Of a DNA stretch of 42,671 bases, positions 4,114-41,386 are shown one piece after another. This DNA comes from Deltaproteobacteria bacterium. GTDB lineage: Bacteria > Desulfobacterota > Desulfuromonadia > Desulfuromonadales > Geopsychrobacteraceae. How positions within the stretch are numbered: position 1 is the first letter of the stretch; each line of letters starts with the position of its first letter. A program made the translations under genes and the position numbers. Below the pieces are notes generated by a model that did not search any database, was not told where the DNA came from, and worked only from the letters and a program-made list of their open reading frames with translations. The stretch is taken from contig JAJRQB010000034.1 in NCBI GenBank assembly GCA_024280485.1, forward strand, positions 1-42,671. Reading direction: 5' to 3'.

Positions 4114-4132
4114 GGTTTTACCTCCGGTGAAG

Positions 4133-4354
4133 TTACTTGGCGACCCGGTGCTTCTTGCCGTCGGCGGCGACGATGACAATCTCGTTGCCCCGTTCGGCGA
4201 AGGATAGGACGTCATCTTCCTTCAAGGCACGCTCAAACGATTTCCACGACAAAACCTTGCCGGTCTCCTTGCCATCAATCTTTTCCTTGACCGGTCGCGA
4301 GCCGTTGAACTTGAGATCCTTCAGGTATTTTTTGTCTAACTTTTCTTCTGGCAT
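4133..4354 (-). CDS. Small basic phage head-region protein, unknown function
   Basis: A 73-residue protein. I place the start at the ATG at 4354, which has GGAGG seven bases upstream; an upstream in-frame start at 4405 has none. The sequence begins MPEEKLDKKYLKDLKFNG, is rich in Lys and Glu, and ends with a short beta-rich SH3-like run (EIVIVAADGKKHRVAK). It lies 19 bases before the capsid gene and after the F-like gene. A role as assembly or decoration factor is possible, but nothing in the sequence proves one. Confidence 0.7.
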   Translation of the reverse strand: MPEEKLDKKYLKDLKFNGSRPVKEKIDGKETGKVLSWKSFERALKEDDVLSFAERGNEIVIVAADGKKHRVAK

Positions 4355-17392: not shown

Positions 17393-18613
17393 TTAAAGCG
17401 CTGCGATCACGTCGGCACTGACTCGATCCTCGCCCAGCTCAAAGGCCAGGTTCATGCCGCGCACCACGTAGTCATTAACCCTCAGCGGGTGGGCTAGGGA
17501 GATATTAAGTTCACTGGTCAGGCGACGGCTCAGCATGGCGTAGGCGTCTTCCGTAAAGATGTCTTCAATCTTGCGATTCAGTCGCTTGAACTTAACTTCC
17601 AGATAGCCTTTCAACGTTCCGTTGAGCCCTTTGATTTCAGCGATTTGTACCCGCTGGATTACTTCGCGCATGTCGACGTTTTGCGACTCTTCGAAGCGGC
17701 TTTTCAGTTCGGTCTGGGCGATCATGATGATCCCGAGCATTTTCTTATATCCATCTTCCATTTCGTGAAAGCGCTTGAGATATTTGAGCACCGGTACACT
17801 GAGATCGTGAGCCTCTTCAATGATCAACACATGGCGATAGCCGTTCTGGGTGCGGTCGAGCAGCAGGCGCTGTACTTGGCGGCTTTTTGATTCAAGGCTT
17901 CTTTTAGGGTTTTCTTGGCTGATATCCAAAATAATAGCGTCGCAGATAGCACCAGATGTCAGGCGTTGTTTGTCGATGGTCTGCGGGTAGATGACTAATA
18001 CATCTTCGGCTTCTTTAAGCTGCGCGATCACCTTGCGGCGCATGACGCTTTTACCGCTGCCCACTTGGCCGACCACCGCAAGAAAACCACCGTGACGTGC
18101 GGCGTCTAGCATGGCGGCTTCAATGTAGCGGTGTTCATCACTCATAAAGATGTCGGATGCTTTCAAGACATCATTGATAAAGGGGTGACTAAATAGTTTG
18201 AAATGTTTCATAGCTCCTTGACTGAGCATTGCAACCTCCCTTGGTGCGTCAATGTGGTTCGGATCTCCGGGAATCATCGCGGCCACTTTATCGTGGCCTC
18301 TTCGTTGACGATCGCCCTGTCCTGCGGGTTTGGCCTTGCGCAGACCTTGCTCGGCAGGTTTCCATAGATCAAGCAGTGTTAGTCCGCGCTTTTCCATCCA
18401 TTCAATGGCTGCCGCGTTATTCTGACAATAGGTTTCTAAGTCTTTTCTGAAGTTTTTTATTGTATGTGGCACGTACCCCTTATTAAGGCATTGATTGATT
18501 GTCGCTTTCGATACATCCAGAGCAGTGGCTATCTCGCCCTGGCTGATATCGCATGCGACTGCCAATTCCTTAAACCGTAACGGGGCAAATGGTAGTTGTG
18601 CTTCCAGGCCCAT
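17393..18613 (-). CDS. MuB-like AAA ATPase, transposition target selector
   Basis: A 406-residue AAA protein. Residues 15-50 form a Cro-like helix-turn-helix (ACDISQGEIATALDVSKATI), as in MuB, followed by a linker. The ATPase has Walker A GQVGSGKS (182-189) and Walker B HVLIIEEAHD (261-270). MuB binds DNA in filaments, delivers target DNA and gives target immunity to the transposase. The gene lies 20 bases after the transposase, matching the A-B order of Mu. It is longer than MuB (312 residues), mainly through the linker and C-terminal domain. Confidence 0.92.
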   Translation of the reverse strand: MGLEAQLPFAPLRFKELAVACDISQGEIATALDVSKATINQCLNKGYVPHTIKNFRKDLETYCQNNAAAIEWMEKRGLTLLDLWKPAEQGLRKAKPAGQGDRQRRGHDKVAAMIPGDPNHIDAPREVAMLSQGAMKHFKLFSHPFINDVLKASDIFMSDEHRYIEAAMLDAARHGGFLAVVGQVGSGKSVMRRKVIAQLKEAEDVLVIYPQTIDKQRLTSGAICDAIILDISQENPKRSLESKSRQVQRLLLDRTQNGYRHVLIIEEAHDLSVPVLKYLKRFHEMEDGYKKMLGIIMIAQTELKSRFEESQNVDMREVIQRVQIAEIKGLNGTLKGYLEVKFKRLNRKIEDIFTEDAYAMLSRRLTSELNISLAHPLRVNDYVVRGMNLAFELGEDRVSADVIAAL

Positions 18614-24929: not shown

Positions 24930-25859
24930 GTGGTGCAGCCTAAAGGCCCTAGTCCAAATAAGTTAATGAGTGGCCCCTGGTTTATTTTGCTTGCTGCAAT
25001 GCTATGGGGAACAGCCGGAACAGCTCAGACCTTGGCACCCGCAGCGGCCCAACCCGCTGTCATAGGAGCCCTGCGATTAGCTGTGAGCGGTGTGGCCCTT
25101 CTCTTATTATCTGGCGTTCAGGGCAGCATAAGTATGCCAAAGCAGTGGCCGCTGGCAGCCACTGCCTGTGCCGCAATCTGCATGGCAACCGTACAGGTCT
25201 GCTTCTTCGGCGCCCTGAGCAGAACAGGCGTCGCAATGGGGACCACTATTTTCATTGGAAGTTCCCCTGTCTTTGCAGGACTCATTGCGTTCCTGCTCCG
25301 AAAAGAGCAGCCCAATCGAAAATGGGGTGGCGCAACGTTGTTGGCGATTATCGGTTGCAGCTTACTGGTAGTCAGTGGTAGCCCGATCGGCGTTGATCCT
25401 TTAGGGGTCCTTCTGGCTCTGGGTGCGGGCTGCGCATATGCAACATATGCAGTGGCTATCAAGGTTCTTCTCGAAGGGCGGTCGACCCTGGCTGTCCTGG
25501 CTGTCACCTCTATTCTTGGTGCAGCACTACTTTCCCCATTCCTATTTTCCGCAGACCTGTACTGGTTGGCTGAGCCGAGCGGAATCGCTATTGCGCTCTA
25601 CCTGGGGTTGGCAACCTCGGCGGCACCGTACTGGCTATTTGCCAAAGGCTTGAGACTGACCCCTGTTTCGACAGCCGTTACTTTGAATCTGGCAGAGCCA
25701 CTCACTGCGGCACTTCTGGGAGTGCTCATACTGGGCGAGCAACTTACCGCTTCTGCCTACCTGGGCATGAGCATGTTGGTGGGCGGCTTGTTGTTGGTTT
25801 CATTCAGTCCCAGAGTCCTCCGGGCAAGAGTTAGGACTCAAGAGCAGGACGGCCGATGA
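24930..25859 (+). CDS. EamA-family (DMT) membrane transporter
   Basis: A 309-residue transporter with ten predicted membrane helices in two EamA repeats (first about residues 15-145, second about 160-295). Typical signs are AMLWGTAGTAQTLAP in helix 1 and NLAEPLTAALLGVLILGEQL near the end. Such proteins usually export amino acids or related metabolites. GTG at 24,930 is used; an ATG at 24,966 is an alternative start. The stop overlaps the next gene (ATGA), so transporter and BKACE are made together, which suggests a transported compound linked to the beta-keto or beta-amino acid pathway. Confidence 0.88.
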   Translation: MVQPKGPSPNKLMSGPWFILLAAMLWGTAGTAQTLAPAAAQPAVIGALRLAVSGVALLLLSGVQGSISMPKQWPLAATACAAICMATVQVCFFGALSRTGVAMGTTIFIGSSPVFAGLIAFLLRKEQPNRKWGGATLLAIIGCSLLVVSGSPIGVDPLGVLLALGAGCAYATYAVAIKVLLEGRSTLAVLAVTSILGAALLSPFLFSADLYWLAEPSGIAIALYLGLATSAAPYWLFAKGLRLTPVSTAVTLNLAEPLTAALLGVLILGEQLTASAYLGMSMLVGGLLLVSFSPRVLRARVRTQEQDGR

Positions 25860-26683
25860 CCAGTTGTGCCCAGCCTCTCATTGTTAGTGTGGCGCCCAAC
25901 GGAGCCCGAAAGTCCAAGGCAGATCACCCCTGCCTGCCGATATCCGATAAGGAGCTGGCGACGACTGCTGCAGACTGTCAGGCCGCCGGTGCGACCATGA
26001 TCCATCTGCACGTGCGTGATTCGGTTGGTCGCCACACCCTGTCCCCGGAGGCCTACCGTAGCGCTACGACAGCCATACGCCAGGTCGTTGGCAAGGATCT
26101 GATCATCCAGGTGACGAGTGAAGCCGTGGGAATCTACCAGCGCGAAGAGCAGATGGCCATGATCCGGGCATTGCGCCCCGAAGCGGTATCCCTGGCTCTG
26201 CACGAGTTCATCCCCAATCCGACCGATGAATCCTCTGCCGCGGTCTTCTTTGCCTGGCTTAACAGGGAACGCATCAGCCCTCAGTATATTCTGTATACCA
26301 GCGAAGAAGTCCGCTACTTCCATGATTTAAGACGGCGCGGCCTTATCCCTGAAGGGCGCCCTTTCGTGCTCTTCGTCCTCGGAGGCTACAACCCTGGCCA
26401 ACAGGGCACTCCCGAAGACCTGTTAGCTTTTCTGGTCGCCCATGAATTCGAATGCCCCTGGGCCGTCTGCGCCTTTGGCCCGCAGGAGGCAGCCTGCACA
26501 GCCAGTGCGATCGCCCGCCAAGGACATGCCCGGATCGGATTTGAAAACAACCTGCTCCTCAGTGATAACAGCCTCGCCCCGGATAATGCCGCGCTGGTCG
26601 CTCAAAGTGTTGCTGCGGCCCAGTTGTTAGGACGCGAGTTGGCAGACGTCGACAAAGCCCGAGAGCTGTTGGGCTGCGTATAA
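25856..26683 (+). CDS. Beta-keto acid cleavage enzyme (BKACE / Kce family, DUF849)
   Basis: A 275-residue TIM-barrel enzyme of the family of 3-keto-5-aminohexanoate cleavage enzyme. Zinc ligands are visible: His50 and His52 in TMIHLHVRD, and Glu230 in IGFENNL, the same spacing as Kce. The family condenses a beta-keto acid with acetyl-CoA and splits it into acetoacetate and a shortened acyl-CoA; substrates vary between subgroups. Start overlaps the EamA stop. The substrate is not readable from sequence; 3-oxoadipate or 6-amino-3-oxohexanoate would fit the neighbours. Confidence 0.9.
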   Translation: MTSCAQPLIVSVAPNGARKSKADHPCLPISDKELATTAADCQAAGATMIHLHVRDSVGRHTLSPEAYRSATTAIRQVVGKDLIIQVTSEAVGIYQREEQMAMIRALRPEAVSLALHEFIPNPTDESSAAVFFAWLNRERISPQYILYTSEEVRYFHDLRRRGLIPEGRPFVLFVLGGYNPGQQGTPEDLLAFLVAHEFECPWAVCAFGPQEAACTASAIARQGHARIGFENNLLLSDNSLAPDNAALVAQSVAAAQLLGRELADVDKARELLGCV

Positions 26684-27004
26684 ACAGAGAAGAAAAAGCA
26701 GCCCCCCCCATGATAATTATCTCAGCCGCTTATTGCCCAATCCTTAAGAACAGATTATTGCCGGTTCCCCTGTATTTCTGCTCCGCCCCCGCTATAGATT
26801 ATTTACCATAGACAGCTTCTGTGGACCGCATAGCGGAATGCATGATCCGAATATCGTCGCATATCTTAACGTGGTGCTGCATTGCGGAAATAAAGTATAG
26901 AAAAGAGTTGACAGGGGTTTTGTTTTTGGTTATCTATGACCATACATGAACCGCTAAGCAATGCAGTTGTTTCGCTGTGCGGTACCATCCTGTGAGGTGT
27001 GGCA
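26684..27004 (+). other. Intergenic region with promoter for the aminomutase operon
   Basis: A gap of about 320 bases without a convincing gene. It contains the sigma-70 promoter at 26,908-26,936 near its right end. A run of C at 26,702-26,710 follows the BKACE stop without a clear terminator hairpin, so some read-through into the aminomutase operon is possible. Confidence 0.6.
26908..26936 (+). promoter_or_regulatory. Sigma-70 promoter upstream of the aminomutase operon
   Basis: TTGACA (26,908-26,913), a 17-base spacer and TATCTA (26,931-26,936) form a good sigma-70 promoter about 70 bases before the thioesterase start. It would drive the operon of thioesterase, aminomutase, CoA-transferase, aminotransferase and thiolase. 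Confidence 0.75.
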
Positions 27005-27382
27005 ATGTCAAACAATAATTTCAATGAGGAAACTGCTCTGAATTTTCGAGGATTCGTCGACACCTACTACGTCATAGATCTTGATTTAGAGCCTCGTCAT
27101 CACAATGTAATGGGGTCTGTACATGGGGGCGTCCTCTGCACTCTGCTGGACACCGCGATGGCACGTTCATTCTTCCACTCCCGCCCGCCGGAGAAGAGAG
27201 CTGGCGCAACCCTGGAAATGAAAATCAATTTTCTGAAATCAGCTACAACCGGAAAGATAACCGCCTTCGGTAAACTGGTTAATACCACCAGGCAGACCGC
27301 CTATGTCGAGGGGCATATACTGAATGAAGAGGGCCAGTTGGTGGCCAAGGCCTCGGCGACTATGATGCGCTTCGAGAACTAA
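27005..27382 (+). CDS. PaaI/YbgC-type hotdog thioesterase
   Basis: A 125-residue hotdog-fold protein beginning at the ATG at 27,005. The PaaI-type motif is HHNVMGSVHGGVLCTLLDTA, with the catalytic-region Asp in LLDTAMA; TLEMKINFLKSA is the central strand. It should hydrolyse an acyl-CoA thioester in the cytoplasm. In clostridial lysine fermentation the ammonia lyase Kal is also a hotdog protein, but this one has the thioesterase motif rather than a clear Kal pattern. It is first in the aminomutase operon, so it may release CoA from the cleavage product. Substrate unknown. Confidence 0.85.
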   Translation: MSNNNFNEETALNFRGFVDTYYVIDLDLEPRHHNVMGSVHGGVLCTLLDTAMARSFFHSRPPEKRAGATLEMKINFLKSATTGKITAFGKLVNTTRQTAYVEGHILNEEGQLVAKASATMMRFEN

Positions 27383-27431
27383 TTTTTTAATAATAAACCG
27401 AACTAATCAGGCAACCGACAGGAGCAGAAAA

Positions 27432-29042
27432 ATGACCAGTCAGAACACCTCAGCGTTAAATCTATCCGATCAATCCCAAGTTGAGAACAAGTCTCACCTC
27501 ATTGTGCAGCCCTCAGATGTTCAGGCGATGATGGCCAGATATCAGTTTTCTGATGATACCCGGCGTATCGTCGAAGATGAGAAGCTGCTGCCGGTTGGAC
27601 TCTTGAGTCGCCTGCAGGCCTCCTACCCTCAACATTCAGGGCTGATGGAGACCAAACCCTTCCTCTTTAAGGTCGGATCAAACTATACCGGTCTCGAAGG
27701 TTTCCGCCGGGTTTGCGAGATTCTCAAGGAGAACGGGATTGAGCTCAGCCAGATCAAGGAGCGCGAATTCTATATCGAGGTTTACCGCTTTTTGGCCACC
27801 AGTCACTCGCTGAATAGCATCAACTGGGACAACTACGAAAACAACTCCCTCTATCAACTGGTAATGCCTCAACCCGGCATGATCGATCCGGAGCCGACCA
27901 AGACCTATGTTGATGCCGAGAGCGAAGAGGAGCGCGCGCGGATCGTCGCCGAGTATACCGAGAAGACCAACCCCCACGACGGCAATCAGCAGCTCAACAA
28001 GCCCTGGTTTAACAATGGCGAGGGCCAAGTCGAATTTCTCGAGGGCAGCCAGCACAAGTACCCGCAGTGTCAGCTGGTCTTCGATACCAGCACCCAGAAC
28101 TGCTTCTCCTTCTGCACCTACTGTTTCCGCCATGCCCAGGTGCGTGGCGACGAAGATATGTTCCTGCAGAAAGATATTACCCAGCTGCACAACTACCTCA
28201 AGCAGCACAAAGAGGTTTCCGACCTGCTGATTACTGGCGGTGACGGTGGCTTTATGCCCGCCAATCGCTTTGAGCAGTACATCAGGCCGATCATCGAGGA
28301 TCCTGAGCTGGGCCATATCCGCAATATCCGTCTCGGCTCGCGTGCCCTGACCTTCCACCCGGAGATGATCCTTAGCAGCAAATTCGACAAGATGCTCGAA
28401 CTGTACGACCTGCTCTACGAAAATGGCATTCAGATGGCCTGGATGGCTCACTTCTCGACCCCGCGCGAGCTGCTGAATCCACGCACCCTCGCCGCGATCC
28501 GCCGCTTGAAGGCCCACGGCGTGTTCGTCCGCAGCCAGAGTCCGATCATGAACCACATCAGCCTCTTTACTGACGAAAACGGCAAGGTCGATGTCGATAA
28601 GTCGGCGCAGAGCTGGATCGACCTGGCTAACATTCTGGCGATGATGGGGATGGGCTTCCACTCCATGTATGCCGCGCGCCCGACCGGCGAGCATCATTAT
28701 TTCACCGCGCCGTTGGCCGACATTGAGCGGATTTTCAGCAAGATCTATAACTCGCTCTCCTCGATCAACCGTCCCTCACGTCACATTTCGATGACGATTT
28801 CGGCCGGCAAGCTGGCTATCATGGGAACCTCGGTCATTGGTGGTGAGAAGTGCTTCGCACTGCAGTTTACCGAAGGGCGTAACATGGAATGGATGAACCG
28901 GGTTTTCCATGCCAAGTACGATGAGCAGAAGAACAAGATCGACCTGTTGCTCCCCTTCGATACCGAGAAGTTCTTCTTCGCAGATGAACTCAAGCAGATT
29001 GAAGAGGATCTGGCCGAAACCCTGCGCAAGCGCCTGGCATAA
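27432..29042 (+). CDS. KamA-family radical SAM 2,3-aminomutase
   Basis: A 536-residue radical SAM/PLP enzyme that should move an amino group from C2 to C3. The iron-sulfur motif is Cys224-x3-Cys228-x2-Cys231 (CFSFCTYCFRH); Arg233 takes the place of the carboxylate-binding Arg of lysine 2,3-aminomutase. GGDGG at 269-273 binds SAM. Lys460 (TISAGKLAIMG) is the likely PLP lysine. By eye, Asp293 of the clostridial enzyme aligns with Arg416 (MYAARPTGE) and Asp330 with Ser453, so the lysine-holding acids are absent and an acidic substrate is likely. An N-terminal extension of about 100 residues and a longer C-terminus exceed the usual 416-residue length. Confidence 0.85.
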   Translation: MTSQNTSALNLSDQSQVENKSHLIVQPSDVQAMMARYQFSDDTRRIVEDEKLLPVGLLSRLQASYPQHSGLMETKPFLFKVGSNYTGLEGFRRVCEILKENGIELSQIKEREFYIEVYRFLATSHSLNSINWDNYENNSLYQLVMPQPGMIDPEPTKTYVDAESEEERARIVAEYTEKTNPHDGNQQLNKPWFNNGEGQVEFLEGSQHKYPQCQLVFDTSTQNCFSFCTYCFRHAQVRGDEDMFLQKDITQLHNYLKQHKEVSDLLITGGDGGFMPANRFEQYIRPIIEDPELGHIRNIRLGSRALTFHPEMILSSKFDKMLELYDLLYENGIQMAWMAHFSTPRELLNPRTLAAIRRLKAHGVFVRSQSPIMNHISLFTDENGKVDVDKSAQSWIDLANILAMMGMGFHSMYAARPTGEHHYFTAPLADIERIFSKIYNSLSSINRPSRHISMTISAGKLAIMGTSVIGGEKCFALQFTEGRNMEWMNRVFHAKYDEQKNKIDLLLPFDTEKFFFADELKQIEEDLAETLRKRLA

Positions 29043-29076
29043 GTAGCGATCTCCTCAACGATAGAGGTTACGGACG

Positions 29077-29787
29077 ATGATTGATAAGCATATTGATTCA
29101 CTGAGCGATGCGGTAGCGGACATCTTCGATGGTGCGACGGTTATGATCGGCGGCTTCGGCGAAGCTGGCAGCCCCATCGAGCTGATTCACGCATTGATCG
29201 ACCAGGGGGCCAAAAATCTGACCGTGGTCAATAACAACACCGGCAGTGGTCATGTCGGCCTCGCGGCGCTGATCGAAAACGGTCGGGTCGGCAAGATGAT
29301 CTGTTCCTACCCGCGCACTGTCGGCTCCAAGGTCTTTCCGGAACTCTACCGCAGCGGCAAGATCGAGCTCGAACTGGTTCCTCAGGGGACCTTGGCTGAG
29401 CGGATTCGCGCTGGCGGCGCAGGGATACCGGCATTCTATACTGCGACTTCGGTCAACACACCTCTCGCCGAAGGCAAGGAACTGCGTAACTTTGATGGGC
29501 GGGATTATGTCATGGAGTACGGCCTGAGAGCTGACTTCGCACTGATCAAATCTGAATGTGCGGATAACCACGGCAACCTGACCTACAACAAGACGGCGCG
29601 CAACTTCGCTCCGATCATGGCGATGGCGGCCAAAACAACCATAGTCCAAACCGGCTCCCTGTGTGAGGTCGGTTCCATCGATCCGGAAGTCATTGTCACC
29701 CCCGGGATCTTCGTAAATCGAGTTGTTGAGATTCCACATCCCGCGCAAGAATCAAAACTGATTGCCGAAGGGAGAAGCTACCCGTGA
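29077..29787 (+). CDS. pcaI: 3-oxoacid CoA-transferase subunit A (PcaI-like)
   Basis: A 236-residue alpha subunit of a family I CoA-transferase. It has the glycine-rich VMIGGFGEAGSPIELIHALI of the CoA site and closely follows 3-oxoadipate CoA-transferase PcaI (LELVPQGTLAERIRAGGAGI, then FALIKSECADNHGNLTYNKT). It forms a complex with the next gene product and moves CoA from succinyl-CoA or acetyl-CoA to a 3-oxo acid such as 3-oxoadipate or acetoacetate. The B subunit start overlaps its stop. Symbol by resemblance; acetoacetate activity (AtoD type) is an alternative. Confidence 0.87.
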   Translation: MIDKHIDSLSDAVADIFDGATVMIGGFGEAGSPIELIHALIDQGAKNLTVVNNNTGSGHVGLAALIENGRVGKMICSYPRTVGSKVFPELYRSGKIELELVPQGTLAERIRAGGAGIPAFYTATSVNTPLAEGKELRNFDGRDYVMEYGLRADFALIKSECADNHGNLTYNKTARNFAPIMAMAAKTTIVQTGSLCEVGSIDPEVIVTPGIFVNRVVEIPHPAQESKLIAEGRSYP

Positions 29788-30470
29788 GCGTTGCAAAACA
29801 GCAAAACATCGGCTGGGGCCGAGAAGAGATGGCAAAGCGGACCGCCCTGGACATTCCCGACGGCTCCTACGTAAATCTGGGTATCGGTATTCCCGAGATG
29901 GTTGCCCAGTATGTTCCCGAAGGGCGGGAAGTGATCTACCACACTGAAAACGGTCTACTCGGCATGGGTCCGGCACCAGCTGAGGACGAAGTTGACCCCG
30001 AACTTATCAATGCGGGGAAGAAGGCGGTTACGGTAAACCCTGGCGCCTCCTTCTTTCACCATGCTGACAGCTTCGCCATGATTCGTGGCCAGCATATCGA
30101 TGTCTGCGTACTGGGGGCGATGCAGGTCTCCGAGCAGGGCGACCTGGCCAACTGGTCGACCGGCGAAGCCGATGCCATCCCGGCAGTCGGCGGGGCGATG
30201 GATCTGGTGGCAGGGGTCAAGACGATCTATGTCATCACCCAGCATTGCACCAAGAGCGGCGAACCCAAGCTGGTCGAATCCTGTAGTTATCCGTTGACCG
30301 GTAAAGCGGTTGTGGATCGGATCTATACCGATCTGGCGGTTATCGATGTTACAGCGGACGGCTTCATGGTTGCCGAACTGGCTCCGGGCATCAGCTTCGA
30401 TTATGTCCAGCAAAGAACCGGCTGCAAGCTACTGCCCGGTCCACAACTGGCCGAAGCTGCAAATCATTAA
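29784..30470 (+). CDS. pcaJ: 3-oxoacid CoA-transferase subunit B (PcaJ-like)
   Basis: A 228-residue beta subunit carrying the catalytic glutamate, Glu56 in HTENGLLGMGPAP, which forms the enzyme-CoA thioester. The sequence pattern (NAGKKAVTVNPGASFFHHAD, then ICVLG-type HIDVCVLGAMQVS) matches PcaJ. The GTG at 29,784 lies in the A subunit stop (GTGA), giving equal translation of both parts. Product with 3-oxoadipate would be 3-oxoadipyl-CoA, the substrate of the thiolase encoded two genes later. Confidence 0.88.
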   Translation: MSVAKQQNIGWGREEMAKRTALDIPDGSYVNLGIGIPEMVAQYVPEGREVIYHTENGLLGMGPAPAEDEVDPELINAGKKAVTVNPGASFFHHADSFAMIRGQHIDVCVLGAMQVSEQGDLANWSTGEADAIPAVGGAMDLVAGVKTIYVITQHCTKSGEPKLVESCSYPLTGKAVVDRIYTDLAVIDVTADGFMVAELAPGISFDYVQQRTGCKLLPGPQLAEAANH

Positions 30471-30511
30471 TCACGCATTTCATACATATCTTCAGAGCAA
30501 AGGATAAGACC

Positions 30512-31882
30512 ATGGCACAGGGAAACTTGGCGGTACCGGCAGATCAATCTCGGAGTGCGGAAATCTACCAACGGGCTTGCGAAGTCATGCCCGGAGGCAT
30601 CAGCCGCAACACGGTATTACGCACCCCTCATCCTGCTTATGCTGAGCGGGGCGAAGGCTGCTACGTGACCGATATCGAAGGGGTGAAGAGGATCGACTTT
30701 GCCAACAACATGGCGGCACTGGCTCATGGCCATGCTCACCCGACCATGGTCGCGGCTCTCACTGAACAACTTCAGAAGGGCACCGCTTTTACCATGGCGA
30801 CCGAGGCGGAGTTCTACTATGCAGAATACCTGTGTAGTCGTAATCCAAGCTTCGACAAGATCCGTTTTTGCAACTCCGGTACCGAAGCGGTGATGAATTG
30901 CATCAAGGCCTCCCGCGCCTTCACTGGCCGCTCCAAGATCGCCAAGATGGAAGGTTCCTATCACGGCCTCTACGACTATGCTGAAGTCAGCCAGACCGCC
31001 AGCCCGGCAAACTGGGGTGATGCGGACCGGCCCAACAGCGTCCCGGTTGCCTACGGCACTCCCGAGTCAGCCCTCAACGAGGTGGTGGTCCTGCCCTTTA
31101 ATGATGTCGAGCGCGCGATTGCTCTACTCGACCAGCACGCCGACGAACTGGCCTGCGTGCTTGTCGACCTGATGCCGCATCGCATCGGCCTGACCCCTGC
31201 GGCTCCTGAGTTTGTTACTGCGTTGCGTAAGTGGACCCAGGAGAACGGCGCCCTGCTGGTCTTTGACGAGGTGGTCACCTTCCGCTCCAACTACAGCGGC
31301 GCGCAGGAATGGTATGCCGAGAGTCCGGATTTGACCGCCATGGGCAAGATCATCGGCGGCGGATTCCCGGTCGGAGCCTTAGCTGGCCGCAAAGAGGTGA
31401 TGGAGGTCATGAATCCGCTGTCGAGCAAGGTGCTCTTCCCGCAGGGCGGAACTTTCTCGGCCAACCCGATGACGATGGTTGCCGGCCATACGGCGATGAA
31501 AATGTTCGATAGAGCTGCAATTAAACGAGTAAATCAACTGGCCGAACGGGGACGAGCGCAGATCACTGAAGCGATTCGGATTGCAGATATCCCAGCTTGC
31601 GTCACTGGTGGCGGATCGATGTTCCGGGTTCATATGAAGCCCGAGGTCAAGGGCGGCTACCGCTCGGCCTATGTCAGCCCAGAGGAAGCCAAACTGATCA
31701 AGTCATTGCTCGACTACCTGTTCGATAACGGTATCATGATGATCAACACCTGCTCGTTCACCACTTCGACCGTAATGAGCGAGAAGGAGGTTGACCATCT
31801 TTCCGAGACGATGCTGTCCGGCTTCCGCAAACTGAAGGAAGAGCAGAACCTGCTGCTGAACAGCCTCCACGGAGACGACTGA
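30512..31882 (+). CDS. Class III aminotransferase (GSA/beta-transaminase type)
   Basis: A 456-residue fold-type I PLP enzyme of the glutamate-1-semialdehyde aminomutase/beta-transaminase branch: MPGGISRNTVLRTPHPAYAE at the start, CNSGTEAVMNCIKASRAFTG for phosphate and cofactor binding, VFDEVVTFR for the PLP-pyridine Asp, and Lys in TAMGKIIGGGFPVGALAG. Members of this branch (for example beta-phenylalanine aminotransferase) act on beta-amino acids. In this operon it would transaminate the beta-amino acid made by the aminomutase to a beta-keto acid. A housekeeping HemL role is unlikely from context. Confidence 0.85.
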   Translation: MAQGNLAVPADQSRSAEIYQRACEVMPGGISRNTVLRTPHPAYAERGEGCYVTDIEGVKRIDFANNMAALAHGHAHPTMVAALTEQLQKGTAFTMATEAEFYYAEYLCSRNPSFDKIRFCNSGTEAVMNCIKASRAFTGRSKIAKMEGSYHGLYDYAEVSQTASPANWGDADRPNSVPVAYGTPESALNEVVVLPFNDVERAIALLDQHADELACVLVDLMPHRIGLTPAAPEFVTALRKWTQENGALLVFDEVVTFRSNYSGAQEWYAESPDLTAMGKIIGGGFPVGALAGRKEVMEVMNPLSSKVLFPQGGTFSANPMTMVAGHTAMKMFDRAAIKRVNQLAERGRAQITEAIRIADIPACVTGGGSMFRVHMKPEVKGGYRSAYVSPEEAKLIKSLLDYLFDNGIMMINTCSFTTSTVMSEKEVDHLSETMLSGFRKLKEEQNLLLNSLHGDD

Positions 31883-31985
31883 TCAGAGTGCGCCCTGTCT
31901 GGTGATATTTCGCTGGTCAGGGTGCATTGGTGTACAATTTCATTTCGCTGTAAATCGCTATCAACTCCGATGGAAGGTATAGGCC

Positions 31986-33185
31986 ATGAGTGAAGTATTT
32001 ATTTGTGATTCAATCCGCACGCCGGTCGGGCGCTACGCTGGTTCTCTCTCTTCAGTGCGTGCCGACGATCTGGCCGCCATTCCGCTCAAGGCCCTGATGG
32101 AGCGTAACCCGGGAGTCGACTGGGCTGCGCTGGATGATGTGATCCTCGGCTGCGCTAATCAGGCCGGTGAAGATAACCGCAACGTGGCGCGTATGTCGAC
32201 GCTGCTGGCGGGACTCCCCGAGGCTGTATCGGGCAGTACGATTAACCGGCTCTGCGGCTCCGGTTTGAATGCCGTCGGTAGCGCCGCTCAGGCGATCAAA
32301 GCCGGGGACGCTGAACTTATGATCGCCGGCGGGGTGGAGAGCATGTCCCGCGCGCCCTTCGTGATGGGCAAGGCGACTTCTGCCTTTTCGCGTGCCGCCG
32401 AGATCTTCGATACCACCATTGGTTGGCGTTTCGTCAACCCGCATCTGAATGCTGTTTACGGCACCGACTCGATGCCAGAAACCGCCGAAAACCTGGCGCG
32501 TGAATTCAATATCAGCCGTGAGGATCAGGACCGTTTCGCACTCTGGAGTCAAGAAAAAGCCGCAGCAGCGCAGCAAGATGGACGACTGGCGCAAGAGATC
32601 GTAGCGGTCAAGGTGCCCCAGCGCAAAGGGGACCCGCTGATTATTGAAAAAGATGAGCACCCGCGTTTGAGTTCACTGGCAACGCTGGGCAAACTGAAGG
32701 CGATGTTCCCTGAAGGGACCATTACCGCCGGGAATGCCTCGGGGGTCAATGACGGCGCGGCAGCGCTTTTGCTGGCAACCGAACAGGCAGCATCTCGCAA
32801 TGGACTTGCGCCTAAGGCACGGATCCTGGGCATGGCCGCCGCCGGGGTTCCGCCGCGCATTATGGGGATAGGTCCGGTGCCGGCAACCCAGAAACTGCTT
32901 AAGCGTTTGGGACTGACCTTGAATGATTTCGACATCCTCGAGCTGAACGAAGCCTTTGCTGCACAATCCTTGGCTTGTACAAGGCAACTTGGCTTGGCCG
33001 ATGATGATCCGCGCATCAACCCACTGGGTGGCGCCATCGCCCTCGGCCATCCATTGGGGATGAGTGGTGCCCGTCTGGTGACCAGCGCTGTTCATCAGCT
33101 ACAGGACACCGGCGGCAAACTGGCGCTCTGTACCATGTGTATCGGAGTCGGCCAGGGGATTGCTCTGGTGGTTGAGCGGGTCTGA
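31986..33185 (+). CDS. pcaF: Thiolase, PcaF-like (3-oxoadipyl-CoA thiolase)
   Basis: A 399-residue degradative thiolase with active-site Cys90 (STINRLCGSGLNAVG), the His of GGAIALGHPLGMSGA and the second Cys of CTMCIGVGQG. The long match to the PcaF/PaaJ pattern (SSVRADDLAAIPLKALMERN, FDTTIGWRFVNP) favours 3-oxoadipyl-CoA, cut to succinyl-CoA and acetyl-CoA, over acetoacetyl-CoA. It follows the aminotransferase by about 100 bases, with GGAAGG before the ATG. No aromatic-ring catabolism genes are nearby, so the 3-oxoadipate would have another source. Confidence 0.9.
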   Translation: MSEVFICDSIRTPVGRYAGSLSSVRADDLAAIPLKALMERNPGVDWAALDDVILGCANQAGEDNRNVARMSTLLAGLPEAVSGSTINRLCGSGLNAVGSAAQAIKAGDAELMIAGGVESMSRAPFVMGKATSAFSRAAEIFDTTIGWRFVNPHLNAVYGTDSMPETAENLAREFNISREDQDRFALWSQEKAAAAQQDGRLAQEIVAVKVPQRKGDPLIIEKDEHPRLSSLATLGKLKAMFPEGTITAGNASGVNDGAAALLLATEQAASRNGLAPKARILGMAAAGVPPRIMGIGPVPATQKLLKRLGLTLNDFDILELNEAFAAQSLACTRQLGLADDDPRINPLGGAIALGHPLGMSGARLVTSAVHQLQDTGGKLALCTMCIGVGQGIALVVERV

Positions 33186-35011: not shown

Positions 35012-36358
35012 ATGTTGAACGGAAATGAAATACCGCAGGTCGGAGCCGGTCAGGGGCATAAAACCAAAACCCTGCTCGAGAAGAAGCAGCAGTTCGTGGC
35101 CCAGGGAATTTCGAACCTGGCGCCGATCTTTGTCGAGTCCGCCAAGGGGGCTGTGGTCAAGGATATCGACGGCAACGACTACCTTGATTTCTACGGTGGG
35201 ATTGGCGTGATCAATGCCGGGCACTGTCCTGAAACAGTGGTCGCCGCCATCAAGGAACAGGCAGAGAAGCTGCTGCACACCTGCTTCATGGTCGGGATGT
35301 ACGAGCCCTATGTCGAGTTGGCAGAGAAGCTGTGCCGGATCACTCCCGGAGATCATGCCAAGAAAGCGATGTTCGTCAACAGTGGTGCCGAGGCGGTGGA
35401 GAACGCGATCAAGATCGCCAAGGCCCATACCAAGCGTCCAAGCGTGATTGCTTTCGAGGGTGGTTTCCACGGTCGCACCCTGCTGACCATGACCCTCACC
35501 AGCAAGGTCAAGCCGTACAAACATGAATTCGGGCCTTTTGCGCCCGAGGTCTACAAGGCCCCTGCGGCATACTGCTATCGTTGCGCATATAAGTCGAGCT
35601 ACCCAAGCTGCGGCATGGCCTGCCTGGAGCATTTCGAGCGCTTCTTTATCTCCGAGGTCGACCCCGAGAGCGTTGCGGCGATGATCATCGAGCCGGTCCA
35701 GGGCGAAGGTGGTTTCATCGTGCCGCCCAATGAGTTCCTGCCGGGTCTGAAGAGCATCTGTGAAAAGCACGGCATCGTCTTTATCGCCGATGAGGTTCAA
35801 TCCGGCTTCGCACGGACCGGTAAGATGTTTGCCAGTGAGCAGCTCGGCGTGATCCCCGATTTGATGACCCTGGCTAAGGGGATCGCCTCCGGCATGCCGC
35901 TTTCAGCCGTGGTCGGTCGGGCCGAGATCATGGACGCCCCGACTCCGGGTCGCATCGGCGGCACCTACGGCGGCAACCCCGTCTCTTGTGCCGCTGCGCT
36001 GGCGACCATCGATCTGATGGAGAAAGAGGATCTGAGCGACAGGGCTGCACAGGTCGGTGCAAAGATTGTTAGCCGCCTGCAGGAACTGCAACAGAAGTAT
36101 CCGCAGATCGGTGATATCCGCGGGCTGGGCGCAATGGTGGCACTGGAACTGGTCAAGGATCCAGTGACCAAGGAGCCTCACAAGGAGGCGGTTCCGGCCA
36201 TCGTGCAGGAATGTTTCAAGAGCGGGCTGTTGACCATGGGTGCCGGAATTTTCAGCAACGTGATCCGATTTCTCCCGCCGCTTGTGATAAGTGATGAGCA
36301 GCTTGAGACCGGGTTGAAGATCTTCGAAGAGTCATTGGGGCAGGTGTTGGGTAAATAA
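35012..36358 (+). CDS. Class III omega-aminotransferase (GabT-like)
   Basis: A 448-residue fold-type I aminotransferase of the 4-aminobutyrate aminotransferase family. It has NSGAEAVENAIKIAKAHT for cofactor phosphate, the FIADEVQSGFARTGK segment with the PLP Asp, and the catalytic Lys in MTLAKGIASGMPLSAVVG. A Cys-rich insert (YCYRCAYKSSYPSCGMAC) is typical of one GabT branch. Likely substrates carry a terminal amino group: 4-aminobutyrate, 5-aminovalerate or lysine (6-position). GGAGG precedes the ATG. With the aldehyde oxidoreductase downstream it could make and oxidise a semialdehyde such as 2-aminoadipate 6-semialdehyde. Confidence 0.88.
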   Translation: MLNGNEIPQVGAGQGHKTKTLLEKKQQFVAQGISNLAPIFVESAKGAVVKDIDGNDYLDFYGGIGVINAGHCPETVVAAIKEQAEKLLHTCFMVGMYEPYVELAEKLCRITPGDHAKKAMFVNSGAEAVENAIKIAKAHTKRPSVIAFEGGFHGRTLLTMTLTSKVKPYKHEFGPFAPEVYKAPAAYCYRCAYKSSYPSCGMACLEHFERFFISEVDPESVAAMIIEPVQGEGGFIVPPNEFLPGLKSICEKHGIVFIADEVQSGFARTGKMFASEQLGVIPDLMTLAKGIASGMPLSAVVGRAEIMDAPTPGRIGGTYGGNPVSCAAALATIDLMEKEDLSDRAAQVGAKIVSRLQELQQKYPQIGDIRGLGAMVALELVKDPVTKEPHKEAVPAIVQECFKSGLLTMGAGIFSNVIRFLPPLVISDEQLETGLKIFEESLGQVLGK

Positions 36359-36630
36359 CGAAATTCGTGGTTTTTCGGTGCAAGGCTGGCCGTACCAGAA
36401 ATCGAAAGGCGCTGGGTGATGCAGATAACCATAAGTGAAAAGAATCTTTCTTCACGTCCCGAGGGCACGCAGGATTGTTTGTACCTGCGCTGCAAACAGG
36501 TTATCAGGGAGGCCGCAGAAATATCTGAGGCACGTCGTAATGCGAAGAACAAAGGTCGTTTTTTGATTTGGTTACAGATTATTTCGATCAGGTTCTGGCA
36601 AGGCTCAGCGTTTCTGAGGGGATGGAATAG

Positions 36631-38274
36631 ATGAAAACGAATATGCATGACAAGGGGAATGGAAGCCTGGTCCTGACGGGTGGCAGCATCTTGACGATGG
36701 CCGGAAATCAGCAGGCTGAAGCGGTCGCCGTGTCCAATGGTCGAATCCGTTGGGTTGGACTGCTGGAGGATTGTCAACAGGCCGCCGGTGCTGATTTTAA
36801 GCAGATCGATCTCGGCGGTCAATGCTTGCTTCCAGGATTCATCGATACCCACTATCACATGATGATGCTAGGGATGTGCAATATCTGGTGCGATGTAAGT
36901 TACCAGAAAGTAAAAAGTATCGACGAACTGGTCGAGACCCTGCGTAAGCATGCCGAAGGCCTTCCACCGGAGGCCTCGATTCGCGGCTTCGGTTTCGATC
37001 AGCGGGCGCTGAAGGAAGAGCGTCACCCCACCGCCTTGGACCTTGACCGGGTTTCGACCGAGCGACCAGTGCAGATCATGCACAAGAGCGGGCATTGCAA
37101 CATCGTCAACAGCTACCTGCTCGAGCAGATAGGGATTGGACCTGAGACCGTCGACCCTCCCGGCGGCGCCTTTGGGCGTGACGCCGAGGGACGACCTGAT
37201 GGAGCGATGTTCGATAGTGCCGCCGATTACCTGGCTGGTGAGTTCGGCGTGCGTCCCGGTGAGCATGGGCCGAACATTCATATGCCCGATTCCCCGGAGA
37301 ACCTGCAGAACATCATCAGCGTCGGTCAGCAGCTGACTCTGGCAGCCGGTATCACGACCATCAACGATGTTCAGGTCACCAAACAGGAGATGGAGTCGTA
37401 CCTGGAGGCGCGCAACAGCGGTCTGCTCAAGACGCGTATTGTGCTCTCATATCTCTCCAACTATCTGGATGAGATCAAGGCGATGGGCTTCAGCTCCGCC
37501 TTCGGTGATGAACAGCTCTCCCTGGGGCCGCTTAAAATCTATGCAGACGGCACCCTGCTGGGGGGAACGGCCCTGTTAAGCAGCGGCTATCTCGACAGCG
37601 AACGCAACAAAGGCTACCTGTTTCATAAGCCGGAAGTTCTCAAGGCTCTGATCGTTTCTGCACACAAGTACGGCATGCAGACCATCACTCACGCCCAGGG
37701 GGATGCTGCTATCGAACTGGTTCTGGAGGCGGTCGAGCAGGCGCAGCAAGAATGCCCCCGCGAAGACATGCGTCACCGCATCGATCACTGCGGTCTGCCG
37801 ACCGAGGAACAGGTCAAGCGGATTGCCAAGTTGGGGATCTGGCCGGTCCCGCAGTCGCAGCATTTTTATGCCAGTGGCGAGGGGGTGGTCAAAGCCGTTG
37901 GTGAAATTGGTGAGAACTATTCCCCTTACGGCTGGTTCGCCAAGTACGGGGTGCCGATTGTTCTCTCCTCCGATGCGCCCGTTGCCTATCCGCAGCCGAT
38001 GGAAGCGGTCTATGCCTGTGTTACGCGTAAAACCATCCATGGCAACCTGGTTGGAGCAAAACAGCGGATTTCCCTGGATGAGTCTTTGAAGGGGTACACC
38101 ATTAATGCCGCCAAGGCGGTGCACAGAGAGCATGATATCGGCTCGATAGAGATTGGTAAACTGGCCGATTTTACCGTTTTGGAGTCCAACCCTTTTGAGG
38201 TCGCTGACGAGGTGTTGAAGGATATCCGGGTGACTCAGACCTGGGTCGGTGGTGAGCAGGTTTTTTTCAGCTAG
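36631..38274 (+). CDS. YtcJ-type metal-dependent amidohydrolase
   Basis: A 547-residue amidohydrolase with metal ligands His74 and His76 (DTHYHMMML), later His in ITHAQGDAAIEL and HRIDHCGL, and the Asp of SSDAPVAYP. The C-terminus (AKAVHREHDIGSIEIGKLAD) returns to the beta-sandwich typical of the family. YtcJ-like enzymes hydrolyse varied amides and ring compounds. In this cluster it might release an amino acid from an amide or lactam, but the substrate cannot be told. The start at 36,631 has a weak purine-rich site; 36,643 is an alternative. The 272-base gap before it holds no convincing gene. Confidence 0.82.
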   Translation: MKTNMHDKGNGSLVLTGGSILTMAGNQQAEAVAVSNGRIRWVGLLEDCQQAAGADFKQIDLGGQCLLPGFIDTHYHMMMLGMCNIWCDVSYQKVKSIDELVETLRKHAEGLPPEASIRGFGFDQRALKEERHPTALDLDRVSTERPVQIMHKSGHCNIVNSYLLEQIGIGPETVDPPGGAFGRDAEGRPDGAMFDSAADYLAGEFGVRPGEHGPNIHMPDSPENLQNIISVGQQLTLAAGITTINDVQVTKQEMESYLEARNSGLLKTRIVLSYLSNYLDEIKAMGFSSAFGDEQLSLGPLKIYADGTLLGGTALLSSGYLDSERNKGYLFHKPEVLKALIVSAHKYGMQTITHAQGDAAIELVLEAVEQAQQECPREDMRHRIDHCGLPTEEQVKRIAKLGIWPVPQSQHFYASGEGVVKAVGEIGENYSPYGWFAKYGVPIVLSSDAPVAYPQPMEAVYACVTRKTIHGNLVGAKQRISLDESLKGYTINAAKAVHREHDIGSIEIGKLADFTVLESNPFEVADEVLKDIRVTQTWVGGEQVFFS

Positions 38275-38374
38275 AAGATGGTCCGGTAAGGAACATAACA
38301 GGTCAAGACTTACGACAGGGTTTTGCCATTTTTCCGGTCGTCCGCTGTCAGGGGCGTTCCATTGGGATAGTAGC

Positions 38375-41300
38375 ATGAGTGAAATTACTGAAAACGGTTT
38401 GCATCAACAAATTCGTGAAAGCATCAGTCTCAGCAATGCCAGGTCGGACGCCAATCTATCCTGGTTGAAGAAGCAGATGCATCACTACTTCTTTCTCTCC
38501 AATAAGGATGTGGTCGAAGCGATTGCGGCATTGGCTACCGGTCTGCACAGTTTGGAGCAGAATCGCAAGATTACGCTGGTCGATCGTGACAGACTACTGA
38601 TGCAGGCACAGTTGGGCGTGCCGGGTTCGCTCTATGAGACGCTGCGGACTCTCCCGGAAAGGGATATCTCCTACGCTCAAATTACCACATCCTATGCGTC
38701 AATCCCCGGGACTTCCCATCCTTTGGAGGTGTTGCGTTTTGATTTTGCCCGTAAGGAAGATCAGGAAATTGCACAGGCTGAGACACCGAGTATCCCGCAA
38801 CAGATCACCAAAGATGTGCGTGAGGCGCTTCAGGTTGAGTATCCAGATTTTGATCTCGAGCAGATCGCTAAGTTGCTTGGTTTGCTCTGGCTCAATAATG
38901 AAAACTACGTGCAGATCTCCCCCGCAGAACGGGTAGCCCGCATCCTCTGGCTCTATCAGCAGACCAAGGCCCACGGAGGGATTTATGTCGATGTCCAGGA
39001 GGCGGATGGACCTGATGGCTCGAAGGAGTCGCGGATTCTGTTCGGTGTCGGCAACCCGCCGCAAAAGGGCTTTCTGCAGCAGACCATTGAGGTGTTCAAG
39101 CGCTTGGGGATTGTGGTCAAACGGGCCTATTGTTTGACGCTCAGCAACGGCACCCATCCTTATTTCTTGGCGACCTTTTATGTGAAAACCGCCAACAAAG
39201 GTCGGGTTGAACGGGATAGTAGTCTGTTTCGGCAACTGCGAGAGGAACTCTACAACACCCAGATTCTGCCGGCGTCTTCTCCGACCTACATGAATCTGGT
39301 TACCAGCGGGATCTTCTCCGGGGTTGAGGCCTCTCTGGTTCGCGCCTTCATCGGTTTTTGCCATACCAACCTGGCCCATAACCATCCCGACCGCTTCGAT
39401 CTGGAAGGAGTCATGCGGGCCTTTCACAATCACCCCGATCTGGTCCAGAGACTGGTCTTGTTGTTTAAAATCCGTTTCGATCCCGAGCTCAGGAAAAGTG
39501 AAGACGGCTACCTTAAGGCCCTGCAAGAGACGACGCAGGTGATTGAAAACTACAATACCGGCCGCCGCTTTCTGGATGAGTATCGTCGGGCTATTTTTCG
39601 TTGTTGTCTCTCCTTCGTGCGGCATACCCTGAAGACCAACTTCTTCGTAACGGATAAACTTGCTCTGGCGTTTCGTATTGATCCCGTCTATATCGACGAA
39701 TTAGGTGAAGAGTTTACCTCAGACCTGCCGCAAGAACGGCCTTTCAGGGTGACCTATTTCTCTGGACATTACGGTTCGGGTTATCATATCGGCTTCTCCG
39801 ACATCGCCCGTGGCGGATGGCGGACCCTGATCACCCAGGGGCGTGACGATTACGTGATGGCTGCTAACAGCATCTTTAAGGAAAACTATATCCTGGCCCA
39901 CACTCAGCATCTTAAGAACAAGGATATCTATGAGGGCGGTTCCAAGATGGTGACGGTACTTGATGCTGGTGGCGAGAAAAATTCGGAGAGCATCAAACAG
40001 CGTCTGTATAACCTCCAGTACGGCTTTATCAACGCATTTCTTGACATCTATGTCACTGAGAACGGCAAGGCGAAAGACCCTCGGGTCGTCGACTACCATG
40101 GTGAGGATGAGCCGATTGAACTCGGCCCTGATGAGAACATGCACGATAGCATGGTTGAACTGGTGGCTAGGCAAGCGGTGAAGCGCGGTTATCTGCTCGG
40201 CGCTGGAATCATGTCGAGTAAGAGAGTCGGGATCAACCACAAGGAATATGGTGTGACCTCGGTCGGCGTCATCCGTTTTGCCGAGGTGGCCATGCAGGAA
40301 CTCGGCATCGATATGCACAAGGATGAATTTTCAGTCAAGTTTACCGGTGGTCCTAACGGTGATGTCGCCGGTAACGGCATGCGGCTCTTGCTGGAGCGTT
40401 CTCCCAAGGTCAAAATCAACCTGCTGATCGACGGCACCGGCGCACTCTATGATCCCTTAGGGGCAGATCTCAAAGCTCTTGAGGCTATTGTGCTTAAGAA
40501 AGATCTTGACGCTTTCGATCCTGAGGCGCTGCACGAGGGCGGATTTATCCTCTATCGGCAACATACCCGCAAAGAGGGGATGCGCGAACTCTACAAAAAG
40601 GTTGTCCGTACCGAACTTGGCCTTGAAGAATTCTGGATTTCCAACGATGAATTCTATCGGGATTACAATAATCTTATTTTTACGGTACAAACCGATCTGT
40701 TTATTCCGGCAGGCGGCCGTCCTGAAACGATCGACATCAACAATTGTCACAAGTTCGCCGATGAGTCGGGCCAGTTGTCGGCTAAAGTGATCATCGAAGG
40801 TGCTAACTCGTTTATTACTCCAGAAGCACGTATTGAATTGCAGAAAATGGGTGTTGTCGTTATCCGCGATGCATCGGCCAATAAGTGTGGTGTTATCTCA
40901 TCGTCGTACGAAATTATTGCCAATCTGCTGTTTTCGGATGAGGAGTTTCTGGCCAATAAAGAGCAGTACGTCGTAGACGTTATCGAAATCCTGAATCATG
41001 TAGCAGAGGCTGAAGCGCGACTGATCTTCAAGCGATACCACGAGCATAATGGCAACATCCCCTATACTGAGATCTCAAATATGATCAGTCAGGAGATCAA
41101 CGCGCATTACGCACGTTTGTTTACCTTTTTCCAAAACCGGCCTCAGCTTTGTCAGCAACCGGTCTACCGCAATGCGATCATTTATCACATGCCGTCAATC
41201 ATTGGGCAAACAGTGAAATTTCGCGAGCGTATCAAGGATCTTCCGCCGAAAATCATGTATGCCATCCTCGCAAGTGAAATCGCATCGTCTCTCGTATATA

Positions 41301-41386
41301 TCGGTGATGCCGATTCCGCCTATGAAGAGATGATCGGTACACATCTGAAGAAGATCCCGGATGTTTCTTCTCAATTGGCTGGTTAA
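38375..41386 (+). CDS. Large NAD-dependent glutamate dehydrogenase (about 115 kDa class)
   Basis: A 1003-residue enzyme. I start at the ATG at 38,375 (MSEITENGLHQ); a longer frame to 38,249 overlaps the amidohydrolase gene. The catalytic region has SGYHIGFSDIARGGWRTLIT and GGSKMVTVLDAGG, and the NAD site is VKFTGGPNGDVAGNGMRLL. It is the 115-kDa type, bigger than the common 450-residue enzyme and smaller than the 180-kDa type. The first 480 residues are a regulatory region. It turns glutamate into 2-oxoglutarate and ammonia, which would recycle the acceptor for both aminotransferases in the window. Confidence 0.87.
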   Translation: MSEITENGLHQQIRESISLSNARSDANLSWLKKQMHHYFFLSNKDVVEAIAALATGLHSLEQNRKITLVDRDRLLMQAQLGVPGSLYETLRTLPERDISYAQITTSYASIPGTSHPLEVLRFDFARKEDQEIAQAETPSIPQQITKDVREALQVEYPDFDLEQIAKLLGLLWLNNENYVQISPAERVARILWLYQQTKAHGGIYVDVQEADGPDGSKESRILFGVGNPPQKGFLQQTIEVFKRLGIVVKRAYCLTLSNGTHPYFLATFYVKTANKGRVERDSSLFRQLREELYNTQILPASSPTYMNLVTSGIFSGVEASLVRAFIGFCHTNLAHNHPDRFDLEGVMRAFHNHPDLVQRLVLLFKIRFDPELRKSEDGYLKALQETTQVIENYNTGRRFLDEYRRAIFRCCLSFVRHTLKTNFFVTDKLALAFRIDPVYIDELGEEFTSDLPQERPFRVTYFSGHYGSGYHIGFSDIARGGWRTLITQGRDDYVMAANSIFKENYILAHTQHLKNKDIYEGGSKMVTVLDAGGEKNSESIKQRLYNLQYGFINAFLDIYVTENGKAKDPRVVDYHGEDEPIELGPDENMHDSMVELVARQAVKRGYLLGAGIMSSKRVGINHKEYGVTSVGVIRFAEVAMQELGIDMHKDEFSVKFTGGPNGDVAGNGMRLLLERSPKVKINLLIDGTGALYDPLGADLKALEAIVLKKDLDAFDPEALHEGGFILYRQHTRKEGMRELYKKVVRTELGLEEFWISNDEFYRDYNNLIFTVQTDLFIPAGGRPETIDINNCHKFADESGQLSAKVIIEGANSFITPEARIELQKMGVVVIRDASANKCGVISSSYEIIANLLFSDEEFLANKEQYVVDVIEILNHVAEAEARLIFKRYHEHNGNIPYTEISNMISQEINAHYARLFTFFQNRPQLCQQPVYRNAIIYHMPSIIGQTVKFRERIKDLPPKIMYAILASEIASSLVYIGDADSAYEEMIGTHLKKIPDVSSQLAG

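Follow-up and report, generated by a model that had tools for sequence, protein, structure and literature searches.

Previously described systems supply comparisons for each part of the locus considered here. In the lysine fermentation of clostridia, which uses KamA, KamDE, Kdd, Kce and Kal, lysine is the starting compound and a KamA-fold aminomutase is combined with acyl-CoA chemistry. 2-Aminoadipate, which is the product of 2-aminoadipate-semialdehyde dehydrogenase (AASADH), is catabolized via 2-oxoadipate and then via either 2-hydroxyglutarate (HglS) or glutaryl-CoA. In the beta-ketoadipate pathway the last two steps are catalyzed by PcaIJ and PcaF. The window analyzed here is the whole of a 42,671-nucleotide contig (C41) of a Deltaproteobacteria bacterium of the Geopsychrobacteraceae, and it carries a block of five genes, kamA'–coatA–coatB–aminotransferase–pcaF. 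We assign a probability of about 0.77 to the reading, drawn from sequence, that this block would encode the lower half of a catabolic pathway for lysine (perhaps pipecolate) that enters central metabolism via beta-ketoadipate.

In the proposed pathway, a lysine-6-dehydrogenase-like enzyme or, in other lineages, saccharopine enzymes or pipecolate oxidase would oxidize L-lysine to 2-aminoadipate 6-semialdehyde/piperideine-6-carboxylate. The semialdehyde would be oxidized by AASADH to L-2-aminoadipate; the candidate host genes for these two steps are found on contig C139. KamA', as a [4Fe-4S]/S-adenosylmethionine (SAM)/pyridoxal phosphate (PLP) 2,3-aminomutase, would then shift the amino group to form 3-aminoadipate, which the class-III aminotransferase would convert to 3-oxoadipate. 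The PcaIJ-type CoA-transferase would produce 3-oxoadipyl-CoA, and thiolysis by PcaF would yield succinyl-CoA and acetyl-CoA. None of the six steps would require O2. Up to 2-aminoadipate this pathway would employ the same lysine dehydrogenase or saccharopine enzymes and AASADH as the known branch, but the amino group would be moved to C3 ahead of transamination. It would share its last two steps with the beta-ketoadipate pathway, with 3-oxoadipate made from an amino acid and not from aromatics. Relative to the clostridial fermentation, the mutase step and the proposed end products are different.

An undescribed, O2-independent lysine pathway distributed across several phyla and built on a new activity, L-2-aminoadipate 2,3-aminomutase, is a probable explanation of these genes. 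No account of a mutase for 2- or 3-aminoadipate, or of the pathway, was found in the open-licence literature, which leaves most subscription journals outside its coverage and in which enzyme names containing commas are unsearchable. The Desulfuromonadales have an anaerobic lifestyle. If the proposal is correct, anaerobes would possess a complete O2-free conversion of lysine to succinyl-CoA and acetyl-CoA that bypasses the glutaryl-CoA step, and an amino acid substrate would be available for a radical SAM clade that the profile libraries place only loosely. It would also explain the pcaIJF-type genes in a genome where the aromatic branch marker pcaD is not found over its cut-off, and correct the naming of these genes as lysine 2,3-aminomutase and aromatic-degradation enzymes.

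Composition and conservation of the block

The genes named in the original prediction are all open frames on the plus strand (Table 1), and profile matches confirm the family of every one except the KamA-like protein. From the thioesterase through the thiolase the genes lie on a single strand with intergenic gaps of 49, 34, −4, 41, and 103 nt and thus form an operon-like compact unit. The gene families, their linkage, and the conserved catalytic residues are established by the sequence.

A scan of contigs with the KamA' protein as the query provided 32 related loci from the Desulfuromonadales, Shewanella, Motiliproteus, Bacteroidales, Balneolales, Ignavibacteriae, Krumholzibacteriia, Eisenbacteria, and one Ramlibacter metagenome-assembled genome (MAG). 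When the KamA' proteins are compared, the host's nearest named relatives are Geopsychrobacter along with other MAGs of the Desulfuromonadales or Deltaproteobacteria. Seven loci (L014, L018, L019, L028, L031, L032, and L040) end at a contig edge before the block could be complete. The five-gene order is present on one strand in 21 of the 25 uncut loci, a count that includes L041, where kamA' is in two pieces, and L044, where the start of the gene is cut off. The complete order appears in the Desulfuromonadales, Bacteroidota, Gammaproteobacteria, and Krumholzibacteriia. The grouping of the genes therefore exceeds chance, and the operon noted in the original prediction is borne out. In three of the four exceptions (L021, L027, and L036) the aminotransferase has no adjoining thiolase; in L027 it is followed by AASADH and the contig end. 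In L038 the thiolase precedes an aminotransferase of only 32% identity.

One Geopsychrobacter MAG (G019) contains two whole five-gene blocks (L015 and L043), with mutases that are 84% and 94% identical to that of the window. The kamA' gene is broken in two at L041:5039-6768, and the match in G006 (L007) has two in-frame stops; both may reflect decay or an assembly error.

The lower steps were examined using family profiles. Both CoA-transferase subunits score above the cut-offs of their subfamilies, which cover PcaIJ as well as ScoAB, so the substrate of this enzyme is not fixed by the match. The TIGR02430 cut-off for PcaF is passed by the window thiolase and by all 10 of the distant thiolases tested, from a set of 22 loci with a thiolase. 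The window thiolase contains the motifs NRLCGSG, GHPLGMSG, and CTMCIGVG. The catalytic motifs of CoA-transferase subunit B, the thiolase, and the aminotransferase are present in all three proteins. The nearest solved structures for the aminotransferase are 6k8h and 6ssd (ForI), followed by HemL; the beta-transaminase 6iz9 is matched with 198 bits.

The KamA' mutase and its candidate substrate

No Pfam match was obtained for KamA' at E ≤ 1e-3. The scores of 62.9 bits for TIGR00238 (cut-off 199.2), 55.4 bits for lysine 2,3-aminomutase (LAM; TIGR03820, cut-off 525.4), and 61 bits for arginine 2,3-aminomutase (TIGR04468, cut-off 600) all lie below the cut-offs. KamA' is thus a distant relative and not an ordinary KamA. 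An AlphaFold2 model made from a 31-sequence alignment (pLDDT 80.9, pTM 0.85) was matched to 2a5h, a LAM structure and the one solved relative found for KamA', with a Z score of 26.4 and a root-mean-square deviation of 3.1 over 320 residues; the next-best entry has a Z score of 11.3. This match rests chiefly on model residues 187-511, with the N-terminal part barely covered.

The cluster motif C224-x3-C228-x2-C231, R233 (R134 of LAM), and K460 (K337 of LAM, the PLP lysine) are identical in 31 of 31 KamA' sequences; the numbering of LAM was verified against 2a5h. With the CxxxCxxC motif, the PLP lysine, the equivalent of Arg134, and the fold of 2a5h, KamA' belongs to the radical SAM 2,3-aminomutase superfamily. 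KamA' also differs from AblA/KamA in the loss of the DAPGGGGK motif, in being about 100 residues longer, and in the linkage of its gene to pcaIJF-type genes.

In LAM, R134 contacts the substrate carboxylate and D293 contacts the side-chain amine of lysine. The D293 position is occupied by R416 in KamA', and arginine is present there in all 31 sequences. In an alignment of 23 KamA paralogues the residues at this position are Asp (10), Glu (6), Met (5), Ser (1), and Arg (1). Eight of these paralogues were scanned against the families, and three (L069, L072, and L084) score above the TIGR03820 cut-off. The sequence identity of KamA' is 17-20% to 22 of the 23 and 25% to the paralogue in L010. The latter is a shorter protein (L010:1363-2463, 367 aa) that also has an arginine at the D293 position (FQCRPTKG) and lies below the cut-off of all four NCBIfam families listed for it.

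An acidic amino acid substrate fits the invariant arginine at the side-chain position, and KamA' is proposed to be an L-2-aminoadipate 2,3-aminomutase. Arginine would suit any acidic side chain, and glutamate 2,3-aminomutase has a lysine at this position, so that both enzymes would have a basic residue there and act on acidic substrates. With glutamate as the substrate, the products would be 3-aminoglutarate and 3-oxoglutarate, followed by malonyl-CoA and acetyl-CoA or by decarboxylation to acetoacetate; half of the 20 distant carriers described below, which have no detected AASADH, are in keeping with this. Glutamate is nevertheless an improbable substrate. KamA' scores 53.4 bits against TIGR04368 (cut-off 650), a comparison made by profile with no glutamate 2,3-aminomutase sequence aligned. 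The PcaF cut-off is passed by all 11 thiolases tested, and the linkage, where seen, is to genes that form 2-aminoadipate.

A sister clade of mutases (L142-L149), 30-38% identical to KamA', was found in 8 of 395 phylum genomes (G086, G096, G187, G203, G237, G324, G394, and G431; E ≤ 1e-60), with 34-38% identity in that scan. All eight have arginine at the D293 position. No pca block was found in the eight neighborhoods (tblastn, E ≤ 1e-10), and the clade is thus of no help in fixing the substrate of KamA'; its members may be 2,3-aminomutases for a different acidic amino acid. In G203 an AASADH gene is located about 10 kb from the mutase, and this nearness is possibly accidental.

Genes for the formation of 2-aminoadipate

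An AASADH gene is found within the same locus in 9 of the 32 loci. The L017 copy scores 803.9 bits against NF050084, the profile for piperideine-6-carboxylate dehydrogenase (cut-off 730). A saccharopine-dehydrogenase-like gene, with 3abi as its best solved match, is found within the same locus in 4 of the 32; it is designated LysDH-like, as we take 3abi (PH1688) to be lysine 6-dehydrogenase. In the single-contig genome G017 (L088) the genes AASADH-LysDH-kamA'-A-B-aminotransferase-pcaF are consecutive on one strand, and the same seven-gene row on one strand appears in L013. In the host, the LysDH-like gene adjoins AASADH and is 64% identical to the L017 copy. These linkages, together with the PcaF scores and the arginine at the D293 position, support the path through 2-aminoadipate and 3-oxoadipate drawn in the original prediction. 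We infer that the mutase acts on 2-aminoadipate and the aminotransferase on 3-aminoadipate, and that the pathway runs in the degradative direction.

The linked lysine-oxidizing genes and the LAM fold of KamA' are also consistent with a different order of steps, in which the mutase would act first to convert lysine to beta-lysine and the dehydrogenases would then oxidize carbon 6, with the remainder unchanged. This order is unlikely, given that the contact to the lysine amine (D293) is replaced by arginine throughout. AASADH and LysDH-like genes are moreover paired in G021 and G023, where KamA' was not found, so these enzymes probably act on their usual substrates. In L016 the AASADH gene, divergent from the block, adjoins an L-pipecolate-oxidase-like gene (458.6 bits, cut-off 600), a pair that would likewise lead to 2-aminoadipate.

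The substrate could instead be a different amino acid, of the 2-amino dicarboxylic or long-chain type, or the pathway could operate biosynthetically toward a beta-amino acid, since CoA-transferases and thiolases are reversible and the aminotransferase family is broad. Either is very improbable in view of the two lysine-catabolism dehydrogenases linked in several genomes and of an apparent amino-acid ABC transporter, recognized by eye, that separates AASADH from the block in L020.

The distribution of these genes is in agreement with use of 2-aminoadipate by KamA'. True KamA' is present in 9 of 44 family genomes (G000, G004, G006, G017, G019, G020, G030, G031, and G033), where the G030 match (175 bits) is cut by a contig end. 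AASADH is present in all nine (an edge fragment in G020) and in 8 of the 35 without KamA', seven of them over the cut-off and G013 as fragments. The association has a Fisher p of 3.4e-5, or 2.7e-4 excluding fragments, not corrected for kinship. The LysDH-like gene (>160 bits) is present in 7 of 9 genomes with KamA' and 4 of 35 without (Fisher p 2.5e-4, likewise not corrected). Among the 395 phylum genomes drawn, true KamA' was found in the host alone and AASADH over the cut-off in 23, so this wider sample does not bear on co-occurrence.

AASADH over the cut-off is found in 10 of 20 distant KamA' genomes. A protein of the saccharopine dehydrogenase family (PF16653) is found in 17 of the 20, in 10 of them as a long form, with an open frame spanning at least about 440 aa; some of the shorter proteins may have another function. 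Fifteen of the 20 have AASADH or the long form. AASADH adjoins a saccharopine-dehydrogenase family gene in G241, G242, and G254. A scan of six neighboring genes for a lysine-ketoglutarate reductase fold gave matches to the alanine dehydrogenase/PNT domain, partly weak, in five (L103, L114, L116, L117, and L118) and no match in L112.

Other routes were sought in the host genome (4.14 Mb in 178 contigs, 96.11% complete), where at about 96% completeness the absence of a gene is not absolute. A KamDE system elsewhere in the genome had been named as evidence that would contradict the pathway; it was sought with the KamD model PF09043, which has no match in the host and matches 4 of 198 phylum genomes and the control genome G094. 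KamD was found in 1 of the 20 distant KamA' genomes. Classical clostridial lysine fermentation was rejected for the host on the missing KamD match, with Kdd and Kal not searched for in the genome. For pcaD, the host has five weak matches and none above the cut-off. HglS (PF07063) has no match in any of the 44 family genomes, whereas the same search matches 2 of 14 control genomes; no search was aimed at the glutaryl-CoA route in the host.

Several observations weigh against the proposed assignment. The counterpart of D330 of LAM in the KamA' alignment is uncertain, and the aminotransferase is below the cut-off of all 25 NCBIfam families shown. The host AASADH and LysDH-like genes lie on a different contig from the block, and the LysDH call relies on a structure deposited as the uncharacterized protein PH1688. 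In seven to eight family genomes AASADH is present and KamA' was not detected, so AASADH does not require the proposed pathway. At E ≤ 1e-100 AASADH is missing from 10 of the 20 distant genomes, and three of the 20 have no PF16653 match. Neither AASADH nor the long form was found in the genomes of L022 (Motiliproteus), L023, L028, L033, and L036. The L023 genome is that of an isolate with a complete block, Shewanella corallii DSM 21332, where neither AASADH nor any PF16653 protein was found; the L028 genome likewise has no detected AASADH and no PF16653 match.

Neighboring genes in the window

The original prediction included direct cleavage by the BKACE enzyme as a branch of the pathway. This branch was rejected. 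The BKACE gene shares 4 nt with the end of the EamA transporter gene and is 315 nt ahead of the thioesterase gene. The 32 related loci gave no match to it (tblastn, E ≤ 1e-8; several loci cover <1 kb upstream of kamA'), and it thus looks like a neighbor and not a part of the pathway. The protein matches PF05853 but passes no NCBIfam equivalog, with 119 bits against NF053568 for 3-oxoadipate:acetyl-CoA acetyltransferase (cut-off 350) and 140.2 bits against NF052387 for Kce (cut-off 382). The hotdog-fold thioesterase adjoins the block in 4 of the 32 loci, upstream in L014, L022, and L043 and downstream in L025.

Table 1. Positions of the features in the window (contig C41) and of two host genes on contig C139.
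Feature	Position	Strand	Profile match or remark
Prophage-like part	1780-22062	−	left half of the window
Phage capsid protein	1780-4215	−	PF25209
Mu F-like match	4482-5342	−	below its cut-off
AAA protein	17393-18613	−
EamA-type transporter	24930-25859	+	open frame
BKACE	25856-26683	+	PF05853, 232.2 bits
Hotdog-fold thioesterase (4HBT)	26999-27382	+	TIGR00369, 78.6 bits (cut-off 36.6); possible accessory
Core block, kamA' to pcaF	27432-33185	+
kamA', radical SAM/PLP aminomutase, 536 aa	27432-29042	+	distinct clade; proposed L-2-aminoadipate 2,3-aminomutase
coatA, 3-oxoacid CoA-transferase subunit A (PcaI/ScoA type)	29077-29787	+	TIGR02429, 348.6 bits (cut-off 128.5)
coatB, 3-oxoacid CoA-transferase subunit B (PcaJ/ScoB type)	29784-30470	+	TIGR02428, 307.5 bits (cut-off 243.55); ENGLLG motif
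Class-III aminotransferase, proposed 3-aminoadipate aminotransferase	30512-31882	+	PF00202 (Aminotran_3), 195.1 bits
pcaF, 3-oxoadipyl-CoA thiolase	31986-33185	+	TIGR02430, 695.6 bits (cut-off 597); NF006551, 720.6 bits (cut-off 605)
Downstream stretch	35012-41386		4-aminobutyrate transaminase, amidohydrolase, 1045-aa frame
Host LysDH-like gene	C139:15863-16927
Host AASADH	C139:16976-18403		805.0 bits

The left half of the window is prophage-like. Downstream of the block are a 4-aminobutyrate transaminase gene, above the TIGR00700 cut-off, and an amidohydrolase gene. The same stretch contains a 1045-aa frame that, by eye only, resembles a large NAD-glutamate dehydrogenase.

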